From Desmonostoc muscorum LEGE 12446 (GTDB lineage: Bacteria; Cyanobacteriota; Cyanobacteriia; Cyanobacteriales; Nostocaceae), in assembly GCF_015207005.2 (NCBI RefSeq), contig NZ_JADEXS020000001.1:4836001-4900000 (forward strand): DNA of 64,000 bases, read 5' to 3'. Positions 48,237 to 64,000 of this stretch are shown piece after piece. Position 1 is the stretch's first letter. Each line of letters starts with the position of its first letter. A model generated the notes under the pieces. The model was not told the origin of the DNA. It did no database searches and worked only from the letters and a program-made list of their open reading frames with translations. The position numbers were made by a program, and so were the translations under genes.

Positions 48237-50006
48237 ATGAACGGTCAACCCTTGGACGGGCGTTACGAAATTGTTCAAGTCTTGGGCGGAGGCGCTTTTG
48301 GGAATACCTTTTTAGCAAAAGACCTCAAACGTCCAGGTCGTCCGCAATGTGTAGTTAAGCAACTAAGCTACTCTAGTCCAGATCCCCAAGCCCTAGAAAC
48401 TGGACGCCGTTTATTTAAAAAAGAAGCAGAAACCTTAGAAAAGCTAGGACAGCATAACCAAATTCCCATGCTGCTAGCTGAATTTGAGGAAAATCAAGAA
48501 TTTTACTTAGTTCAAGAATATATTGATGGTTATCCTCTATATCAAGAAATTGTGCCTGGTCAACCTTGGACAGAAGATCAAGTTATCAGGTTATTGACAG
48601 ATATTTTACAAATTTTAGTATTTGTGCATGGACATGGTGTAATTCACCGAGACATTAAACCTGCCAATATAATGAGGCGCTCTTCTGATGGCAAGTTAAT
48701 TTTGATAGACTTTGGCTCAGTCAAAGAAATTGCCTCTCAAATCCCGAATGCACAATTCCCGCCAACAGTTGCTGTTGGGACTCCGGCATATATGCCGATG
48801 GAACAATATCAGGGTTTTCCACAGTTTAATAGTGATATTTACGCATTGGGTATGATTGCTGTCCAAGTAGTTTTGGGAGTACATACGAATGAATTAACAA
48901 AACTGCAACGGAATGACAGTCCTAATACTGGCGAAATTGTCTGGCCTCAGAAAATACAGCTGAGCGAACCGTTAGCATTTGTAATTAATAAAATGGTGCG
49001 ATTTGACTACCGTCAACGCTACCAGTCAGCAAGTGAAGTGCTTGACGATTTGAGTAAAATTGGTCAGCAAGACCGGGGTTTGCGTCTAGATACAACTATT
49101 ATTGATGAGCGAAATCCTAAGCCTCGAAAGCCAAAATTGCCGATTGTGGCAGGGATAGTGGGGCTGATTGCGATCGCTGGAGTAGGATTTGGTGTGTATA
49201 ACCAGCTACCTCAATTTAATGCGACCGCAGCTTTTAACAAAGGGTTGCAAAAGTATGAGAAAAAAGATCACTCAGGAGCAATCAGAGATTTCACTGACGC
49301 GATTAAAATAAATCCTAACTATGCGGAAGCATATTACGGACGGGCAAATGCTCAATTTTACGCTGGAAACTATCAGCGTTCAGTAGAAGATGCAACTAAG
49401 GCAATTGAGATTAAAGGCAATTATGCCGAAGCTTACAGCCGTCGGTGTGCTGCCTATGTTTTATTGCAAAATTTTCAACAAGCGGAAAATGACTGCACCA
49501 AAGCACTGGATAGCGATCAAAAATATGGTGATGCCTACTTCCATCGAGCAAATGCCCGCCGGAATTTGAATAATAAAGAAGGAGCGCTGGCTGATTTTAC
49601 TAAGTTTATTGATCTGAATCTCGACGATGCTCAAGCGTATATCAATAGGGGTGTTCTTTACATTGAAAAGTTCCAAGACTACGACAAAGCGATCGCGGAT
49701 TATAACCAAGCACTGAAACTAGCTGGCACAAAATCTCATATTACCGCGATCGCCTACGACGGTCGAGGCAATGCCCTTGCCGCTCAACAAAAATTACCTG
49801 CTGCACTTGAGGATTTCAACAAAGCCATTGAGTCCAAAGGAGATTTTGCCCAAGCCTACTTTAACCGTGGCCGTGTCTACGCTGAACTTGACAAAAGAGA
49901 GGAAGCAATTCAGGATTTCCAAAAAGCTGACACACTTTGTAGTCAACAAGGGCTGACAAGTTGCTCCAAGCTAGCACAGTCATTGATCGAACAGCTTAAT
50001 CAATAG
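48237..50006 (+). CDS. Serine/threonine protein kinase with C-terminal TPR repeats
   Basis: 589 residues. The Hanks-type kinase domain (about 7-275) has the glycine loop [10 protein letters not shown], catalytic Lys41 (CVVKQL), HRDIKPANI (Asp139) and DFGS (158-161). The activation segment [18 protein letters not shown] is intact, so the kinase should be active. A single membrane segment follows at about 301-322. Then comes an extracytoplasmic or peripheral region of about seven TPR units (residues 335-585, [20 protein letters not shown] type). Substrates are unknown. It stands alone, ending just before tandem repeats. Confidence 0.92.
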
Positions 50007-50558: not shown

Positions 50559-51670
50559 ATGAACAATCTCATCGAACAGTTGCAGCAAGTCCCAGACTAT
50601 CGGCACATTAGAGGACGGAGACATGAATTGTGGTTAGTACTGTTTCTGATATTGCTGGGAGCCATGACAGGATATTGGGGCTATCGACCACTCGAAGATT
50701 TTACCCGTGTACACAGACAGAGTTTGATTGAACTGTTAAACCTAGATGTGACAATCAATTTTCCATCCTATTCAACATTTCGACGAGTACTGAAAACAGT
50801 GGATTTTCAGCCACTAACAGATTTATTTAATAATTGGGCATCGGTTTTTGTTCCACCAATACCAGGAGAAAGATTGGCAATAGATGGTAAAGGCATTCGT
50901 TGCACAGTCACAGATTACAGTCAGTCTTACCAAAACTTTATCAGTACAGTATCAGTTTATAGCCATGAGCGGGGTATTGTACTCAGGATGCAACCAATGT
51001 CCAACAAAAAAATTAGTGAAGTGGCGTAGGCGTAGCCCGTCGTAGACATCGTCAAACAATTAATCTCCGAGTTTTGTGGTCAACAAGTCGTTTTTACCCT
51101 TGATGCGTTACACTGCCAAAAAAAACTGTATCGCTGATCATCGATAGTGGCAATGATTACCTGATTGGATTAAAAGAAAATCAACCAACACTCTATAAAA
51201 TGGCTCAAACTGAATCACAACAGGATACTCCACTCAGCAGTGCCACAACTGTAGAGAATGTTCATTCTCGACTAGTCCAACGTGAGTGCAAGGTTTTTGC
51301 TGCCCCCGAACCACTTCAAAAAAAATGGTCTGGACTCAAAACTTTTGTGATTGTCGAGCGTCAGGGTGAGCGCAATGGTCAGCCATTTTCCGAGCGTCAA
51401 TTCTATATCTGTAGTCAATATCTCGAAGCTCAACAGTTACTTGCCGACATCCAAGGGCATTGGGGTATCGAAAATCGACTGCATTGGGTCAGAGATGTGA
51501 CATTCAAAGAAGACTTTCCATCACGGCGTGGTGGCAATGCCCCTGTGAATTGGTCTATCTTACACAACTTTTTTATTACGATCGCTCGCCAACTTCGTTT
51601 CCGAACTATTCCTCAAGCACAACGCGCCCTCTCCAATCAACTGCACAAAGTTTTTTCTTTCTTTGTATGA
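50559..51670 (+). pseudogene. ISAs1-family transposase, disrupted
   Basis: Two open frames cover parts of one DDE transposase. The first (50559-51029) has YRHIRGRRHELWLVLFLILL and AIDGKGIRC (first Asp). The second (51200-51670) has IQGHWGIENRLHWVRDVTFK (Glu region) and ends RALSNQLHKVFSFF. The intervening part encodes FTLDALHCQK (second Asp). Two lesions separate them: a 21-bp repeat (51024-51044) that adds in-frame TAG codons, and loss of one A in an A8 tract (51118-51125) that shifts the frame. No active protein can be made. Confidence 0.88.
51024..51044 (+). repeat. 21-bp dispersed repeat inside the ISAs1 transposase
   Basis: GCGTAGGCGTAGCCCGTCGT plus A. It splits the protein between ISEV and DIVKQL, keeps the frame, and adds two TAG stops. 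The sequence resembles repeats common between Nostoc genes. Confidence 0.75.
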
Positions 51671-51692: not shown

Positions 51693-54600
51693 CTACCAAG
51701 GGCTACCAATCATAGTGAAAGGTGCCCAGAAAAATGGATGTTTCAGAATTAACTGCTTTGCTTCAGCAGGACTGACATTTATCTTTGCTAGTGGGATACT
51801 CAAATCGCTATTGCTAATAATTAAGTTTTTGCCCTCTGAATCTATCTTGACTTTGCTGTGAATCATTGCGATTTGTGCTTGTCGGAGTGCTTGTGCTTTC
51901 ATAGATTGAGTCTGCAACTGCTGGTGAAACTCAGTCATCAAGCCCAAAGTTCCTGTATCTGACACCTGCCATAAACTCGCTACAACTGACTTCACACCCA
52001 TCTTGACAGCCGATCCTGCTAAGCCCAACTGTGACTTTTCATCACCGTAAGCTGATTCACAGGCACTTAGTACCAGTAATTCAACTTGTGGTCTATTCCA
52101 TCCCAACTTCGTAACTTCATCTATTTTTAGCTCCCTGTCGTATAGGCGGATGTATGAATTACCTAAATCTTCAGATTTTTCTCCAGGGGTAAAGTTCGCA
52201 TGGGTTGCTAGGTGAATAATCTCAAATGGCGTTGTCGAACGTTCTGCCTGGAGACGGTTGAGGGTAAAGTCCTGGTTGAGGATGGCTGCGCCTCGCCCCT
52301 TCCACACTTGGTTGACGATGGTTTCAGCCTCTACAGGGGCAGCAAGTAACTCTGTGACTGGGTTTTGATTTTGTGGCCCTGGATCAAATGTCTCAGATCC
52401 CATTGCTAGGACTCGTGAGTTTTTCACGCTAGCGTACTGGGTATTAATCAGGCTGAAAGTGGGTATCATGCCGATGCTATACTTTTCAATTAAAAACTGA
52501 TCTTGATCGTCAACGAGGGCGGCTATGGGTAGCGATCGCAAACGTGCATCCAACATCACGAATAGCAAATTCTCGATGCCTTCTTTTTTCAACTCAGCTT
52601 CTAGAGGTCTAATTAGCCATTTATAAAGTTGCTTTGCTGATTTTTTGTAGCTGCTACCGTTAGTTTTCTGGATATCGGGACGAGAATCAGGAGTTGCTTG
52701 GAGGGATACTTCCTGATAAAATTCATCCGCTACTTTCTGAAACTCTCCTCTAGTCACACCTGATACTTTATGGTAGATGTATTTTCCATCTGCTGTGAGG
52801 AGGCGCAAAACCAATGGATCGCTATCTTTTAGTTGTTCTTTGGAAGTTGGATTTTCAGCATTGAGTTTATAGTCTTGGGCAGTAAACTCTACATAAATCA
52901 GTCCGGCTTTGCTACTTATTTTTTGTTCAACTTGTTGGAGTTCATTGCGGATTTCTCCAAGGTTTTTAATCTGACTTTGTGGCAGGTTTAGTGCTGCTTC
53001 AATTCGACGAGTTTCGCTCTCTTCTTTGGAGCCAATATCGGATGCAACTGCGAGATTACTGTTATTTGATGTCAGTTGAAAATCGAGAGTCTTTTCATCA
53101 GGTTTTCCTGGAACTACCCGCCCTTGAGTAATGAGTTGAATCTTGCCTCTAGTCTCGCTATCAGGAAAGTATTCGGTAGGCAAAATCGTATTGCCGATAT
53201 TAGAGGTGATTGAACTAACAGTGCCATTAATTGTGCGTCTGCCGACAAAAAATGGTATAACGCTATCACCTCCATGATCGATGCTAATGGCACCACTACC
53301 TATTCCCCCAGATGCAGAAATGCTCGCCTCTATACCATTGCGATCTATGAAGCTACCTAAAGCTTGAAAATAAGCTCTAGTTTTAATATTTACGTCACCA
53401 CCTATGCCGTTAGTTCCACCTTGGGTATTGATTGATGTCACTGTAATATTATTATCTGGATCTAGCTTCACAGAGCCACCATCACCAGTGCTAGAACTCG
53501 AATTTATAACTTTGGCATCAATCTGAACGCGAGCCTGAATAGTAATATCACCACCATTTCCAGAAACATTATCAGAGTTGAGATTTTCAGTTTGGACTGC
53601 TCCTGTAGTGCTATTGAAGAAAATATTTCCAGAATTACCAACATTGGTGCGAGAAGAAACATTTGCTGTGGTAATGTTGGCAAAAGCGTTGAGGGTGATA
53701 TCACCGCCATTGCCATTACCATCGTTATTGGAATTTAAATTACCAGTTGCGATCGCACCTGTAGAGCTATTGAAGAAAATATTCCCGGAATTCCCAAGAT
53801 TAGTTTGAGAAGACACATTTGCTGTGGTAACGTTGCCAAAGGCATTGAGGGTGATATTGCCACCATTACCATTGAGATCGGTATTAGAATTGAGATTACC
53901 AGTTGCGATCGCTCCATTTTGGCTGGTAATACTAATACCTCCACCTTCTGTAGTGATGCTGCTAGTAGTAATATTCTGATTTGCTAAAAGAGTTAATGCC
54001 GCATTATCGATGCCTGTAATTGCCCCAAATGCATTAATAGAACCTGCCCCAACGGGAGACTGAATAATCACTGGGTCTTTGATAGTCACAGGATTATTAA
54101 TCGTAATCGCACCACTACTATTAGAAAGTCCAATAGTGATGGAATTGAAGCCATCACTTAAGGCGTTGATGTTAACTCTTCCACCACTATTATCACCAAG
54201 GTTGATATTTTTTGTTGGCGTTTGCGGCTGAAGCACTAAATTACCTGTACCGCTGACTGAATCAGTTGCTGATGGCAAGTTAATTTCATCGGCGTTCAAA
54301 GTGAGATTGTTAGTACCTGCTGCAATGGTATTGTTAAAGGCGATCGCACCAGTCCCTGCACTGAAAAGTTTGCTACCACTGCCATTTAAAGTCACAGGAC
54401 TACTGAAGGTAATATTGCCATTCCCAGCATTGATAACTTGACTACCAGTGCCAGTGAAAGTCACGGGACTATTATTAATAGTGATGTCGCCATTCGCCGT
54501 GGTGATGTTGCCAGAAAAGCTAGTATTACCAGCGCTGGTAATACTGATGCCGCCATTGGCTGTGGTGATGTTCCCAGAAAAGCTGTTATTACCAGCGCTG

Positions 54601-57600
54601 CTGATTGTCAACCTAGTTAGAGGATTTGTCGTACCGAGATTACCGCCAAAGCTGATATTACCTGTACCAGCAGTCAAAGAGAAATTAGTAGCCCCATCGA
54701 CGCTATTACTAAAGCTGATATTGCCATTATTTGAAGTGACTATGTTACTAGGAGTAGTTAAGGTGACAGCACCATTAAAGGTAATATTGTTACCCGTGGT
54801 TGAGACACTATTCCCAAGACTAATACTATTGGCAGTAAAGTTAATTGCACCACCAGTAGCGCCAGTAGAGGAAGCATCGACTTGTGCGGTGCTAGTATCA
54901 ATTGTTCCATTGGTGGTGAGAGTGACATCACCACCGTTGCCATTACCCCTAGCAATCAAGTCGCCTGTAGAAATATTTCCGCTTGTGCTGTTGATACTGG
55001 TATTACCTGCATTGCCTGTGACAGCAGAAGTATCAATATTTGCTGTAGTCACATTGCCATTGGCAGCCAGAGCAACATCACCACCGTCGCCATTACCCCT
55101 AGCAATCAATTCGCCTGTAGAAATATTTCCGCTTGTGCTGTTGATATTGGTATTACCTGCATTGCCTGTGACAGCAGAAGTATCAATATTTGCTGTAGTC
55201 ACATTGCCATTGGCAGCGACAGTGACATCACCACCGTTGGTATTACCTGTAGCAATCAAGTCGCTTGTAGCAATAGTTCCGGTTGTGCTGTTGATACTGG
55301 TATTACCTGCATTGCCTGTGACAGCAGAAGTATCAATATTTGCTGTAGTTACATTGCCATTGGCAGCGACAGTGACATCACCACCGTTGGTATTACCTGT
55401 AGCAATCAAGTCGCCTGTAGAAATAGTTCCGGTTGTGCTGTTGATATTGGTATTACCTGCATTGCCTGTGACAGCAGAAGTATCAATATTTGCTGTAGTC
55501 ACATTGCCATTGGCAGCGACAGTGACATCACCACCGTTGGTATTACCTGTAGCAATCAAGTCGCCTGTAGAAATAGTTCCGGTTGTGCTGTTGATATTGG
55601 TATTACCTGCATTGTCTGTGGCAGTAGCAGTATCAATATTTGCTGTAGTCACATTGCCATTGGCAGCAAGGGAGATATTGCCGCTATTGCCAGTGTCAGT
55701 AGCATTGGAATCTAAAACACCACCTGTGGTATCAATAGCACCACTTGTACTGCTGAGAGTAATATCACTGCCTTGTGTAGTGATATTACTTGTAGTAATG
55801 TTCTGGTTGGCTAGCAGAGTTATGGAAGCATTGTCTGTGCCACTAATGTCACCAGTTGCCGTGATACTTCCTACTCCCGTTGGAGACTGAATTCTTACAG
55901 GGTCTTTGAAGGTGACTGGGTTAGTGATATTAATTGCACCACTACCATCATTGCGACCGATAGTAATAGTACCAAAGCCATCTTGTAAGGCGTCGTTTAT
56001 TTGTGTTGTACTCAGGTATAAACTATCTGGAACAAAGCCATCAGCGATGTTGATATTTCGTTCAGGTGTGAAGGGCTGAAGGACTAAATTACCTGTACCA
56101 CTGACTGAATTAGCTGCTAATGGCAAGTTAAGTTCATCGGCAGTTAAAGTCAGATCGTTACCACCTGCTGCAAGGGTATTGGTAAAGGCGATCGCACCAG
56201 TACCTGCATTGAAGATTTTACTACCAATACCAGTCACAGTAACAGGACTGTTGATACTGATGTCACCATTAGCCGTGGTGATATTACCCGCTACGCTAGT
56301 ATTAGCAGCGCTAGTGATTGTCAAGCTACCCAAAGGATTTGGTAGATTACCCAAATCACCGCCAAAGCTGATATTACCTGTACCAGCAGTCAGGATTAAA
56401 TCACTAGAACCATCGACACTATTACTAAAGCTGATATCGCCATTGTCCGCGCTGATAAATGTGCTACCAAGATTAGCTAAGGTGACAAGGCCATTGAAGG
56501 TAATATCGTTGTCTGTGGTCGAGACATTACTGGAAGTGATGTTATTAGCTGCGGTAAAGCTAATTGCACCGCCAATTCCAGCAGTAGATGAAGCATTAAC
56601 TTCTCCAGCGTCGGTATTAATCACCCCATTTGTGCCAGCCAGGAGAGTGATATTACCTGCATCACTTATGAAAGTAAAAGTATCAATGTTTGCTGTAGTG
56701 ATACTGTTATTAGCAGCGAGGGAGATGTTACCACTGTTGCCAATGTCAGTGGCGTTGGAATCTAAAACACCACCTGTGGTATCAATAGCACCACTTGTGC
56801 TGGTGAGAGTAATATCACCGCCTTCTGTAGTGATATTACTTGTAGTAATATTCTGGTTGGCTAGCAGAGTTATGGAAGCATTATCTGTGCCATTAATGTC
56901 ACCAGTTGCCGTAATACTTCCCACTCCCGTTGGAGACTGAATCGTTACTGGGTCTTTGAAGGTGACTGGGTTGATAATATTAATCGCACCACCGCCATCA
57001 TTGCCACCGATAATGATAGTAGCAAAGCCATCTTGTAAGGCGTCGTTTATTTGTGTTGTACTCAGGTATAAACTGTCTGGAACAAAGTCATCACCGATGT
57101 TGATATTTTGTCCAGGTGTGAAGGGCTGAAGGACTAAATTACCTGTACCACTGACTGAATTAGCTACTAATGGCAAGTTAAGTTCATCGGCAGTCAAAGT
57201 CAGATCGTTATTACCTGCTGCAAGGGTATTGGTAAAGGCGATCGTACCAGTACCTGCATTGAAGATTTTACTACCAATACCAGTTACAGTGACAGGACTA
57301 TTAAAGGTAATGTCGTCTGTGGTTGTGATGTTATTGGCAATATTGGTATTGGCGGCGTTGGTTGTCAGACTAGTTAAGCCTGCAACTGCACCACCAAAAG
57401 TAATATCCCCTGTCCCCACAGTCACAGTCAAATCACTCGCCCCACCAACTGTATTGTTGAAGTTGATGTTGTTATTGGTGGTGTTGAACAGTTTTGCACC
57501 ACCACCAGTTAAGGTGACAGGACTATTAAAAGTAATGTCGTCTGTGGTTGTGATGTTATTGGCAATATTGGTATTGGCGGCGTTGGTTGTCAAAGTAGTT

Positions 57601-60600
57601 AAGCCCGCAACTGCACCACCAAAAGTAATATTCCCTGTCCCCGCAGTTACAGTCAAAGCACTCGCCCCACCAACTGTATTGTTGAAGTTGATGTTGTTAT
57701 TGGTGCTGTTGAAGAGTTTTGCACCAACGCCAGTTAAGGTGACAGGACTATTAAATTGAAGAATGCCTGTGGTTGTGATGTTATTGGCAACAAAACTGTT
57801 GGCGGCGTTGGTTGTCAGACTGGTTAAGCCCGCAACTGCACCACCAAAGTTAATGTTCCCTGTCCCCGCAGTTACAGTCAAAGCACTCGCCCCACCAACT
57901 GTATTGTTGAAGTTGATGTCATTATTGGTGGTGTTGAAAATTTTTGCACCAACGCCAGTTAAGGTGACAGGACTATTAAAGGTAATATCGCCTGTGGTTG
58001 TGATGTTATTGCCAACGTTAGTATTGGCGGCGTTGGTTGTCAGGGTAGTTAAGCCCGCAACTGCACCACCAAAAGTAATATCCCCTGTCCCCGCAGTTGC
58101 AGTCAAATCACTCGCCCCACCAACTGTATTGTTGAAGTTGATATCGTTATTGGTGGTGTTGAAAAGTTTTGCACCACCACCAGTTAAGGTGACAGGACTA
58201 TTAAAGGTAATATCGCCTGTGGTTGTGATGTTATTGCCAACGTTAGTATTGGCGGCGTTGGTTGTCAGGGTAGTTAAGCCCGCAACTGCACCACCAAAAG
58301 TAATATCCCCTGTCCCCGCAGTTACAGTCAAAGCACTCACTCCACCGACTGTATTGTTGAAGTTGATGTTGTTATTGGTGCTGTTGAAGAGTTTTGCACC
58401 AACGCCAGTTAAGGTGACAGGACTATTAAATTGAAGAATGCCTGTGGTTGTGATGTTATTGGCAACAAAACTGTTGGCGGCGTTGGTTGTCAGACTAGTT
58501 AAGCCCGCAACTGCACCACCAAAGTTAATGTTCCCTGTCCCCGCAGTTACAGTCAAAGCACTCGCCCCACCAACTGTATTGTTGAAGTTGATGTCATTAT
58601 TGGTGGTGTTGAAAATTTTTGCACCAACGCCAGTTAAGGTGACAGGACTATTAAATTGAAGAATGCCTGTGGTTGTAATGTTATTGGCAATATTGGTATT
58701 GGCGGCGTTGGTTGTCAGACTAGTTAAGCCTGCAACTGCACCACCAAAAGTAATATCCCCTGTCCCCGCAGTTACAGTCAAAGCACTCGCCCCACCAACT
58801 GTATTGTTAAAGTTGATGGTAGCTGTACCAGAAGTGTTGATGTTAGTTATAGCATTGGCAAGATTCAGCGGGCCGGTGAAGGTAATATTGCCGCCGTTAG
58901 TACCAGAAGAATCTATGTTACCAGTAGTAATGTTTCCACCTACTGTGGTTAAGGAAATTACGCCTCCATTACTCCCAGCGCCAGTAGCTGAAGAATTTAA
59001 GTTACCTGTGGTAATATTACCTGTAGCCAATTGACTTGATAAAGTTATTGGGCCACCATTTACCCCATCGATCGCAGAAGAAGTATTGATATTTCCTACC
59101 TGAATACTCCCTTCAGGTAGCGCACTTACTGGGTTTGTAAAGTTTGTGCCACCTGATGCAAGAGGAAAAGCTGTAACAGGAAGAGTTACTGCGGGTAAAC
59201 CAGCACGTAAAATTAACGCAGCACTGCCGGTTAATACACCTGAATCTGGGTCAGCTATTGGAATAGTCAGGTCTGGCCCTGTAATTGTAATGTCGCCACC
59301 CTGAATACTTCCCGTTGCCTCTACCTTCAGTGCTACTCCTGTGTAATTACCAAACAGCACATCTCCATTAGCCCTGATAATCGGATCGTAGAGACTGACA
59401 AAATTACCCGGACCATCCGATAAGTTGCGAATCAAAAATTGCCCACCACTGGCAAAGTGAGCATCACCTGATACATTGCCATCGCTGACTAAACTGAGAT
59501 TTCCGCCGCTTACAAAGGGTGTCTGGGGATGGTTCAGCGCTAGGATATCAATGTTTTGATTACCCTGAATGTAGAGATTTTGCCCAGCTTGGGCTAAAAA
59601 GGGATTCGCTACACTGTCGCGCACCCGTACTGTATCCTTAGCCAACAGATTTAAATCTCCAGTTGTCTGGAGTTGACTCTCTGGTAAAGTCAAATTTTGT
59701 GCGGCTGACAGGGTTGCTGTTCCAGATGTGACGCCTTTGACTACTACATCCCCAGGATTGACTAGAATGCCAGAAGTAGCGAGTTGTACTTGTCCGTTAC
59801 TGTTGACTGTTAATCCACTTGTATTGCCCAAACCGCTACCAGTCAATAGTTTAGGCAAGGTGGCAACGGAAATATTACTAGGTGTACCACCGTTGGTGGG
59901 AATCTCCAAACTCAGTAGGTTTCCTGGCTGGCTGATGCGTAATAGATTCTTTCCAGGTACGGAGGCAACGGTGATATTACCCCCTGGTGCTGATAGCTGT
60001 CCGGTGCTAACTACTGTCCCTGCCAGTAAATTTAAATTGTGGCCAGTACTTATTGCTAAATTGCCAGTGTTGATAATGCTTCCCGGCTGGGATGTGGCGA
60101 AATTAAAGGTGGTGGGTGTTCCCACTAATATTGCGTAGTTGTTGTTACCGAAAGCATTAAACCAATTATTCCCAATACCGATGCCGGTGGCGGTGGTAAC
60201 GGTGAAGTCGCCTGGTACGTTCAAAGCGGCGTTGGGGCCAAATATGACACCAGCTGGGTTCATCAAAAACAGGTTAGAATTCCCACCTACGACTTGAATC
60301 AAACCGTTAATCAATGAAGGGTCGCCGCCGACAACCCGTCCCAAAATATTTTGGATGTTTGGGTTAGAGAGAAAGTTGGCTATTTGGTTGGCATCAAGAC
60401 CGAGCTTTTGAAAGCTGTGGAAGAGATTCGCGCTATCTCCAGATAGAGAACCACCAGTAATATTTAGTTGGTTGCCGTTAGGGGTAACAATAGTATTTGT
60501 GCCGTCAGCAGCAGGGGTTATAGACTGGGCTTGCACTGGGGCGATGGCAATTACTCCTAAAGCGGCTAATTGAGCGATCGCATTGTTAACGGTTAGTAAT

Positions 60601-60629
60601 GATAAATTATTTTGGCTTAAAGATTTCAT
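51693..60629 (-). CDS. Giant two-partner-secretion exoprotein with C-terminal CHAT peptidase domain
   Basis: 2,978 residues from the ATG at 60629 (MKSLSQNN, with AAAGGAATT upstream); the open frame itself continues to 60695. A signal peptide ([15 protein letters not shown]) leads into a haemagglutinin-type TPS secretion domain (about 35-280, with [15 protein letters not shown]). A long Asn/Thr/Gly-rich beta-helix stalk of repeats follows, to about residue 2400. The last 420 residues form a CHAT domain, a caspase/separase-like cysteine peptidase, with His in [10 protein letters not shown] and Cys in [12 protein letters not shown] (codon 52059-52061). Both dyad residues are intact. It should cross the outer membrane through the divergent TpsB. 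The final codons lie in the direct repeat of the adjacent IS. Confidence 0.88.
54912..55661 (-). repeat. Five 150-bp in-frame repeats in the exoprotein
   Basis: Five consecutive 50-residue units starting [20 protein letters not shown] and containing GDLIA(T/R)GN. Units are close to identical at DNA level. Confidence 0.85.
55640..57285 (-). repeat. Two long direct copies, 1,050 bp apart, in the exoprotein
   Basis: Copies at about 56690-57285 and 55640-56235 encode nearly the same 200 residues ([53 protein letters not shown]). The offset of matching words is 1,050 bp. Confidence 0.8.
57243..58817 (-). repeat. Seven 225-bp in-frame repeats in the exoprotein
   Basis: Seven units of 75 residues starting [20 protein letters not shown] and containing FGGAVAGLT(S/T)LTTNAAN and [12 protein letters not shown] identity between units is very high. 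The second and fifth units are almost identical to each other, as expected from block duplication. Confidence 0.88.
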
Positions 60630-60752
60630 CGAATTCCTTTGAATAAAAACCAAGTGAAAATTTCCCCCATAAGTTTCTATGGGGGGATTATTCAACTGAA
60701 CATTGGGTATCCGCTAACTAGTAGCCAAGTCAGACCAACAGGAGGTTTATTC

Positions 60753-61667
60753 CTAATTAGGAACTCTTGGCACAGATACTTCAGACTTTAATGGCAAAAC
60801 CTTTGCTGGCTGTTGATTCACAACCTCAAAAGCTGTTTCATCTTCTTCTTCAATCAGATTAAATGGCTTATCGCCTCTGAGGGAAATAGTTAACAGTGGC
60901 GGCGTCTTGTCCAACCGAATACGAAATTTAGAATAACGCTGCAATGACCCAAAACCCTTTCTTTTGCGAATCGCCTTTTTCTGAGTATTAGTTTTGCCGT
61001 AAATTGTTACTACCCGCCCCGACCCATCAAAAACCGGACCCCCAGTCATCCCAGCAAAATTATACTGCGGTGGTAAGTTACTGTAAGTTTTTGATTTATC
61101 CTTTTTGGTTAATTGTGTGACATGAAAAACCAGCTTTTTACTTCCGGCTGGCGGGTTAGCAAATCCACCAACATAAACACCATTACAAAGCTGTGGATCG
61201 TCTAACAAGCAATCTGCCGGATCTTCTGATACAACTAGTTTGGCAGTTTTATAAGTCCGAGTGCTTTCAAAACGCACGATCGCTAAATCTTCATCCGCTA
61301 ACTCCTCTATATCTGTCTGGGTAGAAATCCGGATTTTTTGGCGTTTATTTCCTTTATTTCCTTCGGGTAGAGGTGTTACGATGTCGTAATTAGCACTTTT
61401 GTCCTGCACTACTGACTTGGCTGTAACTACGATATAAACATTTTTTCCTCCTTCCTGGTAGCGATCGCTAATGATTCCAGAACCAGAACTACCAGTGGTC
61501 GATTCAATCCGTACTACGGTTCCTCTAGCAATTGCGGCTACTTCGGTTGGTTGCAATTCTTTAAGTGTTTGTGTCGGCTGTACAGCTTCTTGTGCAAAAA
61601 CTTCACTGACTCCCGTGATGATTAATGCACCGATTAAAAAACCTCGTAAAATGTATCGATTTAACAT
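60753..61667 (-). CDS. Exported trypsin-fold pseudoprotease
   Basis: 304 residues from the ATG at 61667, which has GGAGG 10 nt upstream (the frame extends to 61691). A signal peptide ends near EVFAQEA. The trypsin-like fold is clear, but the expected TAxHV reads TAKSV (Ser85 in place of His) and the expected GxSGGP reads GMTGGPVFDGSG (Thr208 in place of Ser). Asp127 (DLAIV) is kept. With two of three catalytic residues changed it is probably inactive, a binding or regulatory protein. It lies 124 bp upstream of the exoprotein on the same strand. Confidence 0.82.
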   Translation of the reverse strand: MLNRYILRGFLIGALIITGVSEVFAQEAVQPTQTLKELQPTEVAAIARGTVVRIESTTGSSGSGIISDRYQEGGKNVYIVVTAKSVVQDKSANYDIVTPLPEGNKGNKRQKIRISTQTDIEELADEDLAIVRFESTRTYKTAKLVVSEDPADCLLDDPQLCNGVYVGGFANPPAGSKKLVFHVTQLTKKDKSKTYSNLPPQYNFAGMTGGPVFDGSGRVVTIYGKTNTQKKAIRKRKGFGSLQRYSKFRIRLDKTPPLLTISLRGDKPFNLIEEEDETAFEVVNQQPAKVLPLKSEVSVPRVPN

Positions 61668-61691
61668 AGTTTTCATTCCTCCACTTAGCAA

Positions 61692-62378
61692 GTTTACTTA
61701 AATTGTGAAGTATTCGCAGTTATTGATCTCCAAGCAGGTAGAACAATCCAGCTGCCTTCGTAGTGAGTAATACAAGCGAAGCAAGCTTGATATCGAAAAT
61801 ACTCTGGAATTGCGTATTCCTTACTAACTCGAACAATGATACGAACTACTCTAAATAAAGAGAAAATACTTATTTCCAGATTATACAGATTAATGATTTA
61901 AAAAAAATACTACACCGAGAAATTACATATAAAAATTACATAAATTTTATTTTTCTCAAAATTCTGGCTAAAGGTCAGGTTATATGAGATTATTCAGGTA
62001 AATTACACAGTAATTAACCAAAAAACTTCAAGATGTTCACTTAAAAACCCCTATATCCAATTTCAAGAATTTTGAATCTGATTAATCCTAAAGACACGGT
62101 TATTAACAGCATAGACAACTATGTTCTGTTTGCAGAATGACACCAATCAACCATCGCAACTATCCGAGAGCAATGCCTCAGAATCGCTTGCGATTACGCT
62201 ACCACTAGTGAAGGATGACAGTTGCACTATTGCTTCTACACTAAGCTTTTGGGACTATGTAGACTAAGTTTTTTGTATAACTTCCATTGAAACGGTTCAA
62301 TCTTGTATTTTGTGGTACAAAAAACTCTAAAATAGTCAAACTAGATGTACTATTTGTTACGTTTTTATATAAAAATTA
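61692..62378. other. Divergent intergenic region of the secretion locus
   Basis: 690 bp between the pseudoprotease and TpsB genes, AT-rich. It presumably carries both promoters. No gene, operator or hairpin was recognised. Confidence 0.55.
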
Positions 62379-64000
62379 ATGAAGAATTTTTCCAGAATCT
62401 ACCAAGACAAACAAAAAAGTAGGTGTTTGATATTACAAAAACAATTGTGGTGGGGCGTACTGTTAAGTCAGTGTACAGTTTTGGTTACTGGTATATCTCC
62501 AAGTTACGCTGATACTGATTCATCTCCAACTGTTGATACACTGATACGAAGACTGAAACAAAAAGCCGAACCTCAGTGCGATACTCAAAGTACACAAAGC
62601 CTAGAAGTCTCACCAACACCAGATGATGCAACAATTCTGGTAAAAAAAATACAACTGATATGTAGTAGTTTTTCTGAATCAAAGGAACTGAATCGGATAA
62701 TTGGAGAAGTTGAAGGATCTACAGTCACTTTGGCAGAGTTGCGAAGTATTGCCGATCAAATCACCGGGTGGTATTTTCAGCAAGGCTACATCACCTCAGT
62801 AGCGACTTTAGAAGCATCTGCCATTAAAGATGGTATCGTACCAATTAGGGTGATTGAAGGTAGCATTGAAGAAATTCAACTTGATCCGCCGACAAAACGT
62901 ATAAATTCAAGGTATGTGCGATCGCGGTTGAATCTGGGTATTACCAAGCCTTTTTCCCAAAGAAAATTAGAAGAACAATTAAGGTTGCTGCAAACAGACC
63001 CTTTGTTTGAAAAAGTCGAAGCCAGCATCCGTCCAGGGACTAAGCAGGGTCAAAGCATTGTAGTAGTGCGAATCACTGAAGCGAATCCCTTTGATTTAGG
63101 ATTTAGTGTTGACAACTACTCTCCCCCTAGCATCGGTTCCGAACGATTAGGGGTGGGTGTTAGCTATCGTAACCTGACAGGTCTTGGGGATCAACTCTTT
63201 GGGTCTTATTACTTCTCCACTCGCCAAGGCGGTAGTAATGTTTATGACTTTAGTTACCAAGTGCCCTTAAATCCGATGAATGGGACTTTGCAGCTAAGAA
63301 CTGCAATTAACAAAGTCAAAGTTATTGAAGCCCCTCTCAACGCTTTTGATATTCGTGGACAATCGGAATTGTATGAATTTACTTACCGTCAACCCATAGT
63401 GCGATCGCTCCGTGAAGAATTTGCCTTATCCTTAGGGTTTAGCGTCCAGAATGGTCAGACATTTACCTTTGCCGGTCCCACACCCTTTGGTATTGGCCCA
63501 GACGAAGACGGTAACAGTCGCACCCGAACAATTAGATTTGCTCAAGATTATGTTAGACGGGATCTACAGGGAGTTTGGGGATTCCGATCGCAATTTAACT
63601 TCGGGATTGGCGCTTTTGACGCCACCACAAACTCCGACCCCAACAAGCCTGATGGTCGCTTTTTCAGCTGGCTATTGCAAGTACAGCGCCAGCAACGTTT
63701 GGGTGCAGACAATCTTTTAATCGCCCAAGCAGACCTGCAACTAACACCAGATGGTTTATTACCCTCCCAACAGTTTGTCATCGGAGGTGGGCAATCAGTA
63801 CGCGGCTATCGGCAAAACGTCCGGGCTGGTGATAACGGATTAAGATTTACTTTAGAAGACCGTATCACATTGCAAAGAGACACCAGTGGAGAGGAAGCCC
63901 TGCAACTAGCACCATTTCTCGATTTGGGATACATTTGGAACGTAGATAAAAATCCCAACCTCATACAAAGACAGAGATTTATCGCTGGTGCAGGACTAGG
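62379..64000 (+). CDS. TpsB/FhaC-type outer-membrane transporter (3' end outside window)
   Basis: Open frame from the ATG at 62379 to the window end, at least 540 residues. A signal-like segment (WWGVLLSQCTVLVTGISPSYAD) is followed by a POTRA region (about 115-245, with ITGWYFQQGYITSVATLEAS and RSRLNLGITKPFSQ). The beta-barrel starts near DLGFSVDNYSPPSIGSERLG. The family hallmark VRGY (474-477, in GGGQSVRGYRQN) is present. This Omp85-superfamily pore exports TpsA proteins across the outer membrane; the divergent CHAT exoprotein is its likely cargo. No clear ribosome-binding site precedes the ATG. The gene is incomplete only because of the window edge. Confidence 0.88.
   Translation, partial: MKNFSRIYQDKQKSRCLILQKQLWWGVLLSQCTVLVTGISPSYADTDSSPTVDTLIRRLKQKAEPQCDTQSTQSLEVSPTPDDATILVKKIQLICSSFSESKELNRIIGEVEGSTVTLAELRSIADQITGWYFQQGYITSVATLEASAIKDGIVPIRVIEGSIEEIQLDPPTKRINSRYVRSRLNLGITKPFSQRKLEEQLRLLQTDPLFEKVEASIRPGTKQGQSIVVVRITEANPFDLGFSVDNYSPPSIGSERLGVGVSYRNLTGLGDQLFGSYYFSTRQGGSNVYDFSYQVPLNPMNGTLQLRTAINKVKVIEAPLNAFDIRGQSELYEFTYRQPIVRSLREEFALSLGFSVQNGQTFTFAGPTPFGIGPDEDGNSRTRTIRFAQDYVRRDLQGVWGFRSQFNFGIGAFDATTNSDPNKPDGRFFSWLLQVQRQQRLGADNLLIAQADLQLTPDGLLPSQQFVIGGGQSVRGYRQNVRAGDNGLRFTLEDRITLQRDTSGEEALQLAPFLDLGYIWNVDKNPNLIQRQRFIAGAGL

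Follow-up and report, generated by a model that had tools for sequence, protein, structure and literature searches.

A predicted two-partner secretion locus with a CHAT peptidase domain and a trypsin-fold pseudoprotease in Desmonostoc muscorum

In the cyanobacterium Desmonostoc muscorum LEGE 12446 three contiguous genes, recognised from a list of open reading frames (ORFs) and from Pfam scans, encode a TpsA-like exoprotein that ends in a CHAT cysteine-peptidase domain (TpsA-CHAT hereafter), an exported trypsin-fold protein with two of its catalytic residues replaced, and a transporter of the TpsB/FhaC type. They lie in a stretch of 64,000 nucleotides (the window), which corresponds to positions 4836001-4900000 of contig C1 in a genome of 9.6 Mb. 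In our judgement, held at somewhat better than even probability, the locus is a two-partner secretion (TPS) unit whose cargo would be an extracytoplasmic CHAT cysteine peptidase and which includes a dedicated trypsin-fold helper. This reading is based on the domains and catalytic residues of the proteins, on the association of the genes among relatives, on the clades that their products form and on the purifying selection seen in the pseudoprotease.

Architecture of the locus

TpsA-CHAT and the trypsin-fold gene are both on the minus strand, 57 bp apart, and the transporter gene is divergent, 687 bp upstream of the trypsin-fold gene according to the ORF coordinates. The features of the locus are, in window positions:

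51693..60695, minus strand: TpsA-CHAT exoprotein, 3000 amino acids (aa), TTG start (ORF and Pfam scan)
60528..60629, minus strand: signal-peptide-like segment with a hydrophobic N-terminus, ending VQA-Q right before the TPS domain (cleavage site by eye)
59919..60512, minus strand: TPS secretion domain PF05860, residues 62-259, NPAG motif present (Pfam scan)
57273..58818, minus strand: passenger tandem repeats of 75 aa (225 bp x 6.9; repeat analysis)
54907..55667, minus strand: passenger tandem repeats of 50 aa (150 bp x 5.1; repeat analysis)
53545..53912, minus strand: passenger tandem repeats of 52 aa (156 bp x 2.4; repeat analysis)
51702..52643, minus strand: CHAT cysteine-peptidase domain PF12770, residues 2685-2998, 2 residues short of the C-terminus (Pfam scan)
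52200..52202, minus strand: catalytic His2832, in HLATHA (alignment)
52059..52061, minus strand: catalytic Cys2879, in LSACES, the sole cysteine of TpsA-CHAT (alignment)
60753..61691, minus strand: exported trypsin-fold pseudoprotease, 312 aa (ORF, Pfam scan and alignment)
61413..61415, minus strand: Ser93, replacing the catalytic His (alignment with intact relatives)
61287..61289, minus strand: catalytic Asp135, kept (alignment with intact relatives)
61044..61046, minus strand: Thr216, replacing the catalytic Ser (alignment with intact relatives)
62379..64000, plus strand: TpsB/FhaC-type transporter, cut by the window end (ORF and Pfam scan)
62640..62861, plus strand: POTRA_2 domain of TpsB (Pfam scan)

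An ATG at residue 23 (about 60629), chosen by eye, appears a more plausible start of TpsA-CHAT than the TTG. A Pfam scan of the whole protein returned the CHAT domain alone (PF12770, 221.6 bits, model positions 2-289 of 289, above the curated cut-off), and the TPS domain was seen only in a piecewise scan, in which the N-terminal 500 aa, scanned separately, matched PF05860 with 130.6 bits at residues 62-259; scanning of pieces over the whole protein gave only these two domains above cut-off, and neither TPR nor any other domain. The part of TpsB inside the window matches ShlB (106 bits) and POTRA_2 (55 bits), and the gene is complete in the genome, where it encodes 583 aa and ends at C1:4900130, i.e. 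window position 64130. With an N-terminal PF05860 domain in the exoprotein and a neighbouring TpsB that combines POTRA with a ShlB/FhaC barrel, the pair is predicted to be of the two-partner (type Vb) kind. A first-pass annotation, made from the sequence alone, had proposed a TpsA-like exoprotein with a C-terminal CHAT domain in one ORF and a divergent TpsB/FhaC transporter contiguous with the other two genes, and both proposals are confirmed by these matches.

The nearest named locus, L069 of Nostoc sp. FACHB-973, matches the window fusion at 96% across its last 452 residues. The length of the passenger is variable, with 3000 aa in the window and 2475, 2137 and 2574 aa in L069, L070 and L071, respectively.

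The CHAT lineage and its association with TPS genes

The CHAT domains of 121 distinct fusions were aligned (81 at family level and 40 at class level), and the catalytic His and Cys occupy the aligned columns in all of them; the domain is thus neither absent nor degraded in these homologues, a point that the first-pass annotation had left to be checked. When cysteines are counted from the TPS domain to the end, 59 fusions (window included) have one, 56 have three, four have five and two have two, and the two extra cysteines of the 56 are mostly 4-5 residues apart. The odd number found in 119 of the 121 is what would be expected of one free catalytic thiol accompanied by disulfide pairs.

The association of CHAT and TPS genes is also evident in the genome of D. 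muscorum itself. On contig C1, a CHAT match is present within 10 kb of 15 of the 19 TPS genes (rotation mean 1.66; 15 is reached in 2 of 5000 rotations), and a POTRA_2 gene within 5 kb of six of them (rotation mean 0.20; six is reached in none of 5000). The rotation test and the recurrence among relatives lead us to reject a chance neighbourhood.

Relatives of the C-terminal 452 residues were found in 80 of 145 family-level genomes at E <= 1e-60 and, at class level, in 169 of 378 genomes at E <= 1e-70. The family-level set consists of 85 listed regions outside the own genome with ORFs of at least 1000 aa, at most the best 11 candidates per genome being scored; together with the window and five others these make 91 loci, which yield 81 distinct single-ORF fusions. 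All 81 end 2 residues past the CHAT match. TpsB is encoded within 5 kb of 48 of the 81 fusions and a trypsin-like gene within 5 kb of 16, all of which also have TpsB; these counts are lower bounds, because at least 4 kb is available on both sides of 68 fusions and 5 kb of one. The co-location within 5 kb put forward by the first-pass annotation is therefore recurrent, but the trypsin is optional and TpsB is not always adjacent. At class level 40 loci were hand-picked for long ORFs among the matches listed (at most the best four candidates per genome scored), and 39 of them hold a TPS-CHAT fusion. The fusions have signal-peptide-like N-termini, recognised by a hydrophobic stretch. A scan of genome contigs gave five loci, three in cyanobacteria and two encoding CHAT proteins of Planctomycetaceae; a TPS domain was looked for in these two proteins and none was found.

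A further feature of this set is that 36 of the 81 fusions start with a GT2 glycosyltransferase match (for example L050:5251-10455 and L090:4498-10122, both on the minus strand). An internal signal-peptide-like segment precedes the TPS domain in the 16 junctions inspected, and four of the GT2 matches are shorter than 150 residues. A second copy of the unit is found in the own genome (L049:5206-18205), with TpsB, COP23, two trypsins with an intact triad, TPS and CHAT, the TPS part being separated from the CHAT part by a transposase-like ORF.

A tree of 74 CHAT domains, with midpoint rooting only, included 22 of the 81 family-level fusions, 22 of the 40 at class level and one domain from the interrupted own-genome copy. 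These 45 fused domains form one clade (support 98/95), which joins (92/81) a second clade, whose 14 members are all CHATs encoded separately in the own genome (L009, L011, L014 to L024 and L026). A TPS gene is found at a distance of 10 kb or less from 13 of these, but from none of the 13 further separate CHATs of the own genome that the tree includes; TPS linkage therefore belongs to one CHAT lineage, which comprises fused and split forms. Exported CHATs seem to be common in this genome. According to a crude hydrophobicity score, by which signal peptides were judged, 22 of the 49 own-genome CHAT ORFs surveyed (out of 53 matches) have a signal- or anchor-like N-terminus, which does not fit the first-pass statement that CHAT peptidases are usually cytosolic; secreted CHATs have indeed been mentioned before, in a passage of PMC7522525. 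Among these 49 ORFs a general link between signal-like N-termini and nearness to TPS genes is not significant (Fisher p 0.14); the link holds by clade. In total the genome has 53 CHAT matches, 22 TPS domains and nine POTRA_2 genes, so that many TpsA-like proteins may share transporters. It also contains a dense CHAT cluster (C1:8311000-8348000; L199, L200), mostly with hydrophobic N-termini, whose nearest TPS gene is more than 1.3 Mb away.

When the neighbours of the fusions were clustered, the groups obtained were TpsB, Ser/Thr kinases, CHASE2, DUF928, ParA-like ATPases, COP23 and a small protein of the winged-helix type. The family-level count covers 88 fusion ORFs, with duplicates and without the window, and gives within 5 kb 47 cases of TpsB, 24 of CHASE2, 23 of ParA-like ATPases, 19 of DUF928, 17 of kinases, 15 of trypsins, 14 of winged-helix proteins and 11 of COP23. 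The 40 class-level loci have CHASE2 (12), DUF928 (11), TpsB (6), kinase (3), trypsin (1) and COP23 (1) within the same distance, and the 14 CHAT ORFs of own split loci, among which one gene is counted twice, have TPS (12), DUF928 (6), CHASE2 (4), TpsB (2), COP23 (2) and trypsin (1). None of these partner families was found near 26 own-genome control CHATs, which include one member of the TPS-linked clade and some regions shorter than 5 kb per side. Hydrophobic N-termini are present in 22 of 23 trypsin-like, 13 of 14 COP23 and 33 of 36 DUF928 proteins. A CHASE2-DUF928 gene cluster in a cyanobacterium appears in a passage of a paper on WD40 proteins (PMC5587647).

The 26 kb around the window fusion contain TpsB, the trypsin-fold gene and one kinase (a weak profile match), and within them CHASE2, DUF928, COP23, ParA-like and winged-helix proteins gave no match. 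Directly after the end of TpsA-CHAT there are transposase pieces (window 50559-51670; DDE_Tnp_1_assoc and a sub-threshold DDE_Tnp_1), which are missing in L069, where the kinase gene is only 144 bp from the fusion. The Ser/Thr kinase of the window carries TPRs (48237-50006) and is convergent to the fusion; a kinase with the same start is found at L069, L070 and L071.

The trypsin-fold pseudoprotease

The trypsin-fold protein matches PF13365 with 34.3 bits, against a cut-off of 27.6, and its His-Asp-Ser triad is reduced to Asp135 by the replacements at positions 93 and 216. Both His and Ser are lost at six loci (the window, L069, L070, L071, L074 and L081), the copies of the window and L069 being 99% identical. 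The triad is intact at L049, L075, L077 and L082, each with a second trypsin gene beside the first, and a more distant trypsin, also with an intact triad and lipoprotein-like by eye, is found at L111, L113, L116, L123, L124, L138, L147 and L150. In a tree the six pseudoproteases form one clade (95/98) nested inside active proteases. A COP23 gene is present at all 12 loci with intact trypsins and at none of the six pseudoprotease loci; the pseudoprotease state goes along with a lack of both COP23 and the second trypsin, but this most likely reflects a single evolutionary event.

Judging from the ratio of nonsynonymous to synonymous substitution rates (dN/dS), the pseudoprotease is under purifying selection: pairwise values in its clade are mostly 0.16-0.29, similar to those of the active trypsins (0.15-0.23 in the first group, 0.08-0.28 in the second), with 0.46 for a near-identical pair that differs by very few changes and saturation in one pair. 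Two points count against this, namely that many synonymous distances exceed 1, which makes all these ratios rough, and that L081 gives 0.44 with the window as well as with L069. The altered catalytic residues noted in the first-pass annotation thus belong, by clade and dN/dS, to a real pseudoprotease. As a part of the locus, however, it is limited to the six-locus subclade, the 12 other loci keeping the triad. Moreover, trypsins of the window type are rare, a search at E <= 1e-20 having found them in 3 of 388 genomes, among them the own one, and they are therefore no universal partner.

Possible function and relation to known systems

According to the reading that we favour, the 3000-aa TpsA would be exported by Sec, and TpsB would carry its TPS domain and the presumably beta-helix-like repeat stalk over the outer membrane. 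The C-terminal CHAT domain would cross last and act in the cell envelope as a His/Cys peptidase on a stalk of variable length; upon a stimulus it would probably cleave proteins of the envelope or periplasm, or else the stalk that carries it. The trypsin-fold protein would be a periplasmic helper dedicated to the unit, without catalysis but with its fold kept; by analogy, it most likely binds unfolded TpsA as a chaperone or holds the CHAT domain in check.

Several observations weigh against this reading. The chaperone role is purely an analogy, drawn with DegP in the secretion of filamentous haemagglutinin (FHA); in Bordetella DegP is said to have a role in such TPS export. TpsB was not found in the flanks of 33 of the 81 fusions, nor a trypsin in those of 65, so that the partners are not obligatory neighbours. 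The cysteine pattern does not hold at split loci: the CHATs encoded separately there carry from 2 to 8 cysteines beyond residue 60, in many cases an even number, and CHATs without signal-like N-termini include some with 9-22 cysteines and others with only 2-4. The structure model of the trypsin-fold protein is unusable (predicted local distance difference test score, pLDDT, 45), and that of the CHAT domain is weak (pLDDT 57, TM-scores of about 0.3). In favour of the reading, however, five PDB entries match the CHAT model at E <= 0.001, of which four bear titles that name a CRISPR effector with a caspase regulator or Cas7-11 with TPR-CHAT/Csx29, while 7x8a is titled simply as a bacterial protein complex; SAVED-CHAT is a weaker match at rank 28. 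Sequence searches of the PDB with TpsA-CHAT and with the trypsin-fold protein gave no relative (best E 0.07 and 0.43). The sole proteomic hint is one short peptide of a Nostoc CHAT-domain protein, listed for a water extract in PMC9895726, and nine of its residues are found in five fusions and in one unfused TPS ORF.

A possible, though less probable, explanation is outside-in envelope signalling, in which the stalk is a surface antenna and the CHAT domain, held at the periplasmic side of TpsB, cleaves periplasmic partners on a signal, the candidates being the trypsin-like, COP23 and DUF928 proteins and the CHASE2 receptors. Their recurrence near the fusions and not near the control CHATs speaks for it, as do the hydrophobic N-termini of most of the candidates, whereas the 26 kb around the window fusion lack all but the trypsin-fold gene and some of the control regions are short. 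Moreover, 12 of the 14 sister-clade separate CHATs are signal- or anchor-like and a TPS domain is absent from all 14, so that they should remain inside the outer membrane. The extra cysteine pair of 56 fusions might be a stop-transfer hook, but the pairs are at varied places and the window TpsA has none. A module of marine picocyanobacteria, described in a passage of PMC7522525, likewise contains secreted CHATs together with cell surface proteins and/or adenylate cyclases. Since the partners of the relatives would be periplasmic or in the inner membrane, the CHAT domain may face inward, and the first-pass placement of the peptidase outside the cell was too strong.

A broader proposal, which we make tentatively and regard as slightly less probable still, is that of a class-wide cyanobacterial family of extracytoplasmic caspase-fold proteases tied to TPS exoproteins (split, fused, and some fronted by GT2) which, with periplasmic trypsins, COP23, DUF928 and CHASE2 receptors, would form an envelope proteolytic cascade leading from surface contact to intracellular signalling; in the window lineage an activating trypsin would have become a pseudoprotease regulator.

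It is unlikely, but compatible with the C-terminal position of CHAT on the stalk in all 81 fusions, that this domain serves for release, severing the stalk on which it sits and so freeing the adhesin, in cis, as SphB1 does for FHA and LapG for CdrA. The genes of known TPS maturation proteases are reportedly outside TPS operons, as stated in a passage of PMC5422565, and a protease enclosed in the exoprotein would therefore be an alternative; the CHATs of the sister clade, however, are separate proteins, so that cutting in cis need not be ancestral. We consider it improbable that the protein is an exoprotease for nutrition or for sheath or matrix processing, freed into the medium like LepA, even with LepA as a precedent for a TPS-exported protease (PMC5422565) and with the CHAT-assigned peptide of the Nostoc water extract, given that the exported and membrane signalling partners of the relatives are unexpected for a digestive enzyme. 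Contact-dependent killing, suggested by the first-pass annotation, with CHAT delivered to neighbour cells as a toxin like CdiA-CT, is very improbable and was set aside: an enzymatic C-terminal domain on a TPS stalk with TpsB often adjacent would suit it, but this domain is conserved rather than polymorphic, VENN occurs in 2 of 121 fusions and not in the window protein, no immunity gene lies directly downstream in the window (where an insertion sequence remnant follows) or at L069-L071 (where the convergent kinase does), and around 120 fusions only 15 same-strand ORFs of <= 250 aa were found within 300 bp downstream, none recurrent and their N-termini unrelated by eye.

The invariant dyad of a TPS-linked cyanobacterial CHAT lineage, in which the catalytic cysteine is often the only one, points to proteolysis by caspase-fold enzymes in the envelope of multicellular cyanobacteria, a place where open questions concern the sensing of surfaces, the biology of filament and sheath, and programmed death. 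The series from active trypsin to pseudoprotease within one conserved gene unit is a natural one, through which the helper role of our favoured reading can be tested.

The known systems share single elements with the window. LepA of Pseudomonas aeruginosa is trypsin-like. In LepA/LepB, as in the window, the TpsA protein is itself a protease (PMC5422565); the window protein is set apart, by description and not by sequence, by a repeat stalk that ends in a CHAT cysteine peptidase and by the pseudoprotease gene. FhaB/FhaC has a TPS domain, a long repeat stalk and a TpsB with POTRA, as does the window. To our knowledge FHA has no CHAT domain. Its maturation proteases are reportedly encoded elsewhere (a passage of PMC5422565), whereas the window has a trypsin-fold gene 57 bp upstream, with two catalytic residues lost. 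In CdrA/LapG, according to the same source, the TpsA has a periplasmic C-terminal tail that a protease cleaves (PMC5422565); there the protease, LapG, is a protein in its own right, whereas in the window it is the C-terminus of TpsA itself. CdiA/CdiB shares with the window a TpsB and a TpsA with a C-terminal catalytic domain, but the window has neither immunity gene nor VENN boundary and its C-terminus is conserved instead of polymorphic.

Csx29 and SAVED-CHAT act intracellularly with CRISPR or cyclic-nucleotide sensors. The TPR-CHAT protein Csx29 (Craspase) and SAVED-CHAT have the CHAT fold in common with the window protein, Csx29 being among its best structural matches and SAVED-CHAT a weaker one, and differ from it in that scans of the latter, which is predicted to be exported, reveal neither TPR nor SAVED domains. 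Among the eight window proteins scanned none matched Cas7-11 (gRAMP), other neighbours being outside that scan. HetF of Anabaena (TPR-CHAT) belongs to the divisome and combines TPRs with a single predicted transmembrane segment, and its domain organisation is drawn without TPS. As far as we know, those CHAT proteins whose structure has been solved and whose role is known work within the cell or where it divides. The picocyanobacterial module, Syn_GI122, consists of secreted CHATs with uncharacterised cell surface proteins and/or adenylate cyclases; the passage on it names no TPS domain, TpsB or trypsin, and the comparison with the window is by description only (PMC7522525). Since secreted CHATs are mentioned there, secretion of CHAT as such was already noted, which lowers the novelty of CHAT export. 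A transmembrane CHAT protein appears in a paper on Bacteroides (PMC11854122), and many cyanobacterial TpsB proteins are placed in the Hmw1B subgroup in a passage of PMC4104836. In agreement with the first-pass annotation, which knew of no system of this composition, the open-access PMC papers searched gave no description of a TPS or haemagglutinin domain combined with CHAT. CHAT and TPS are each known, and it is their combination, a TPS-borne CHAT peptidase with an adjacent pseudoprotease, that seems to be new.

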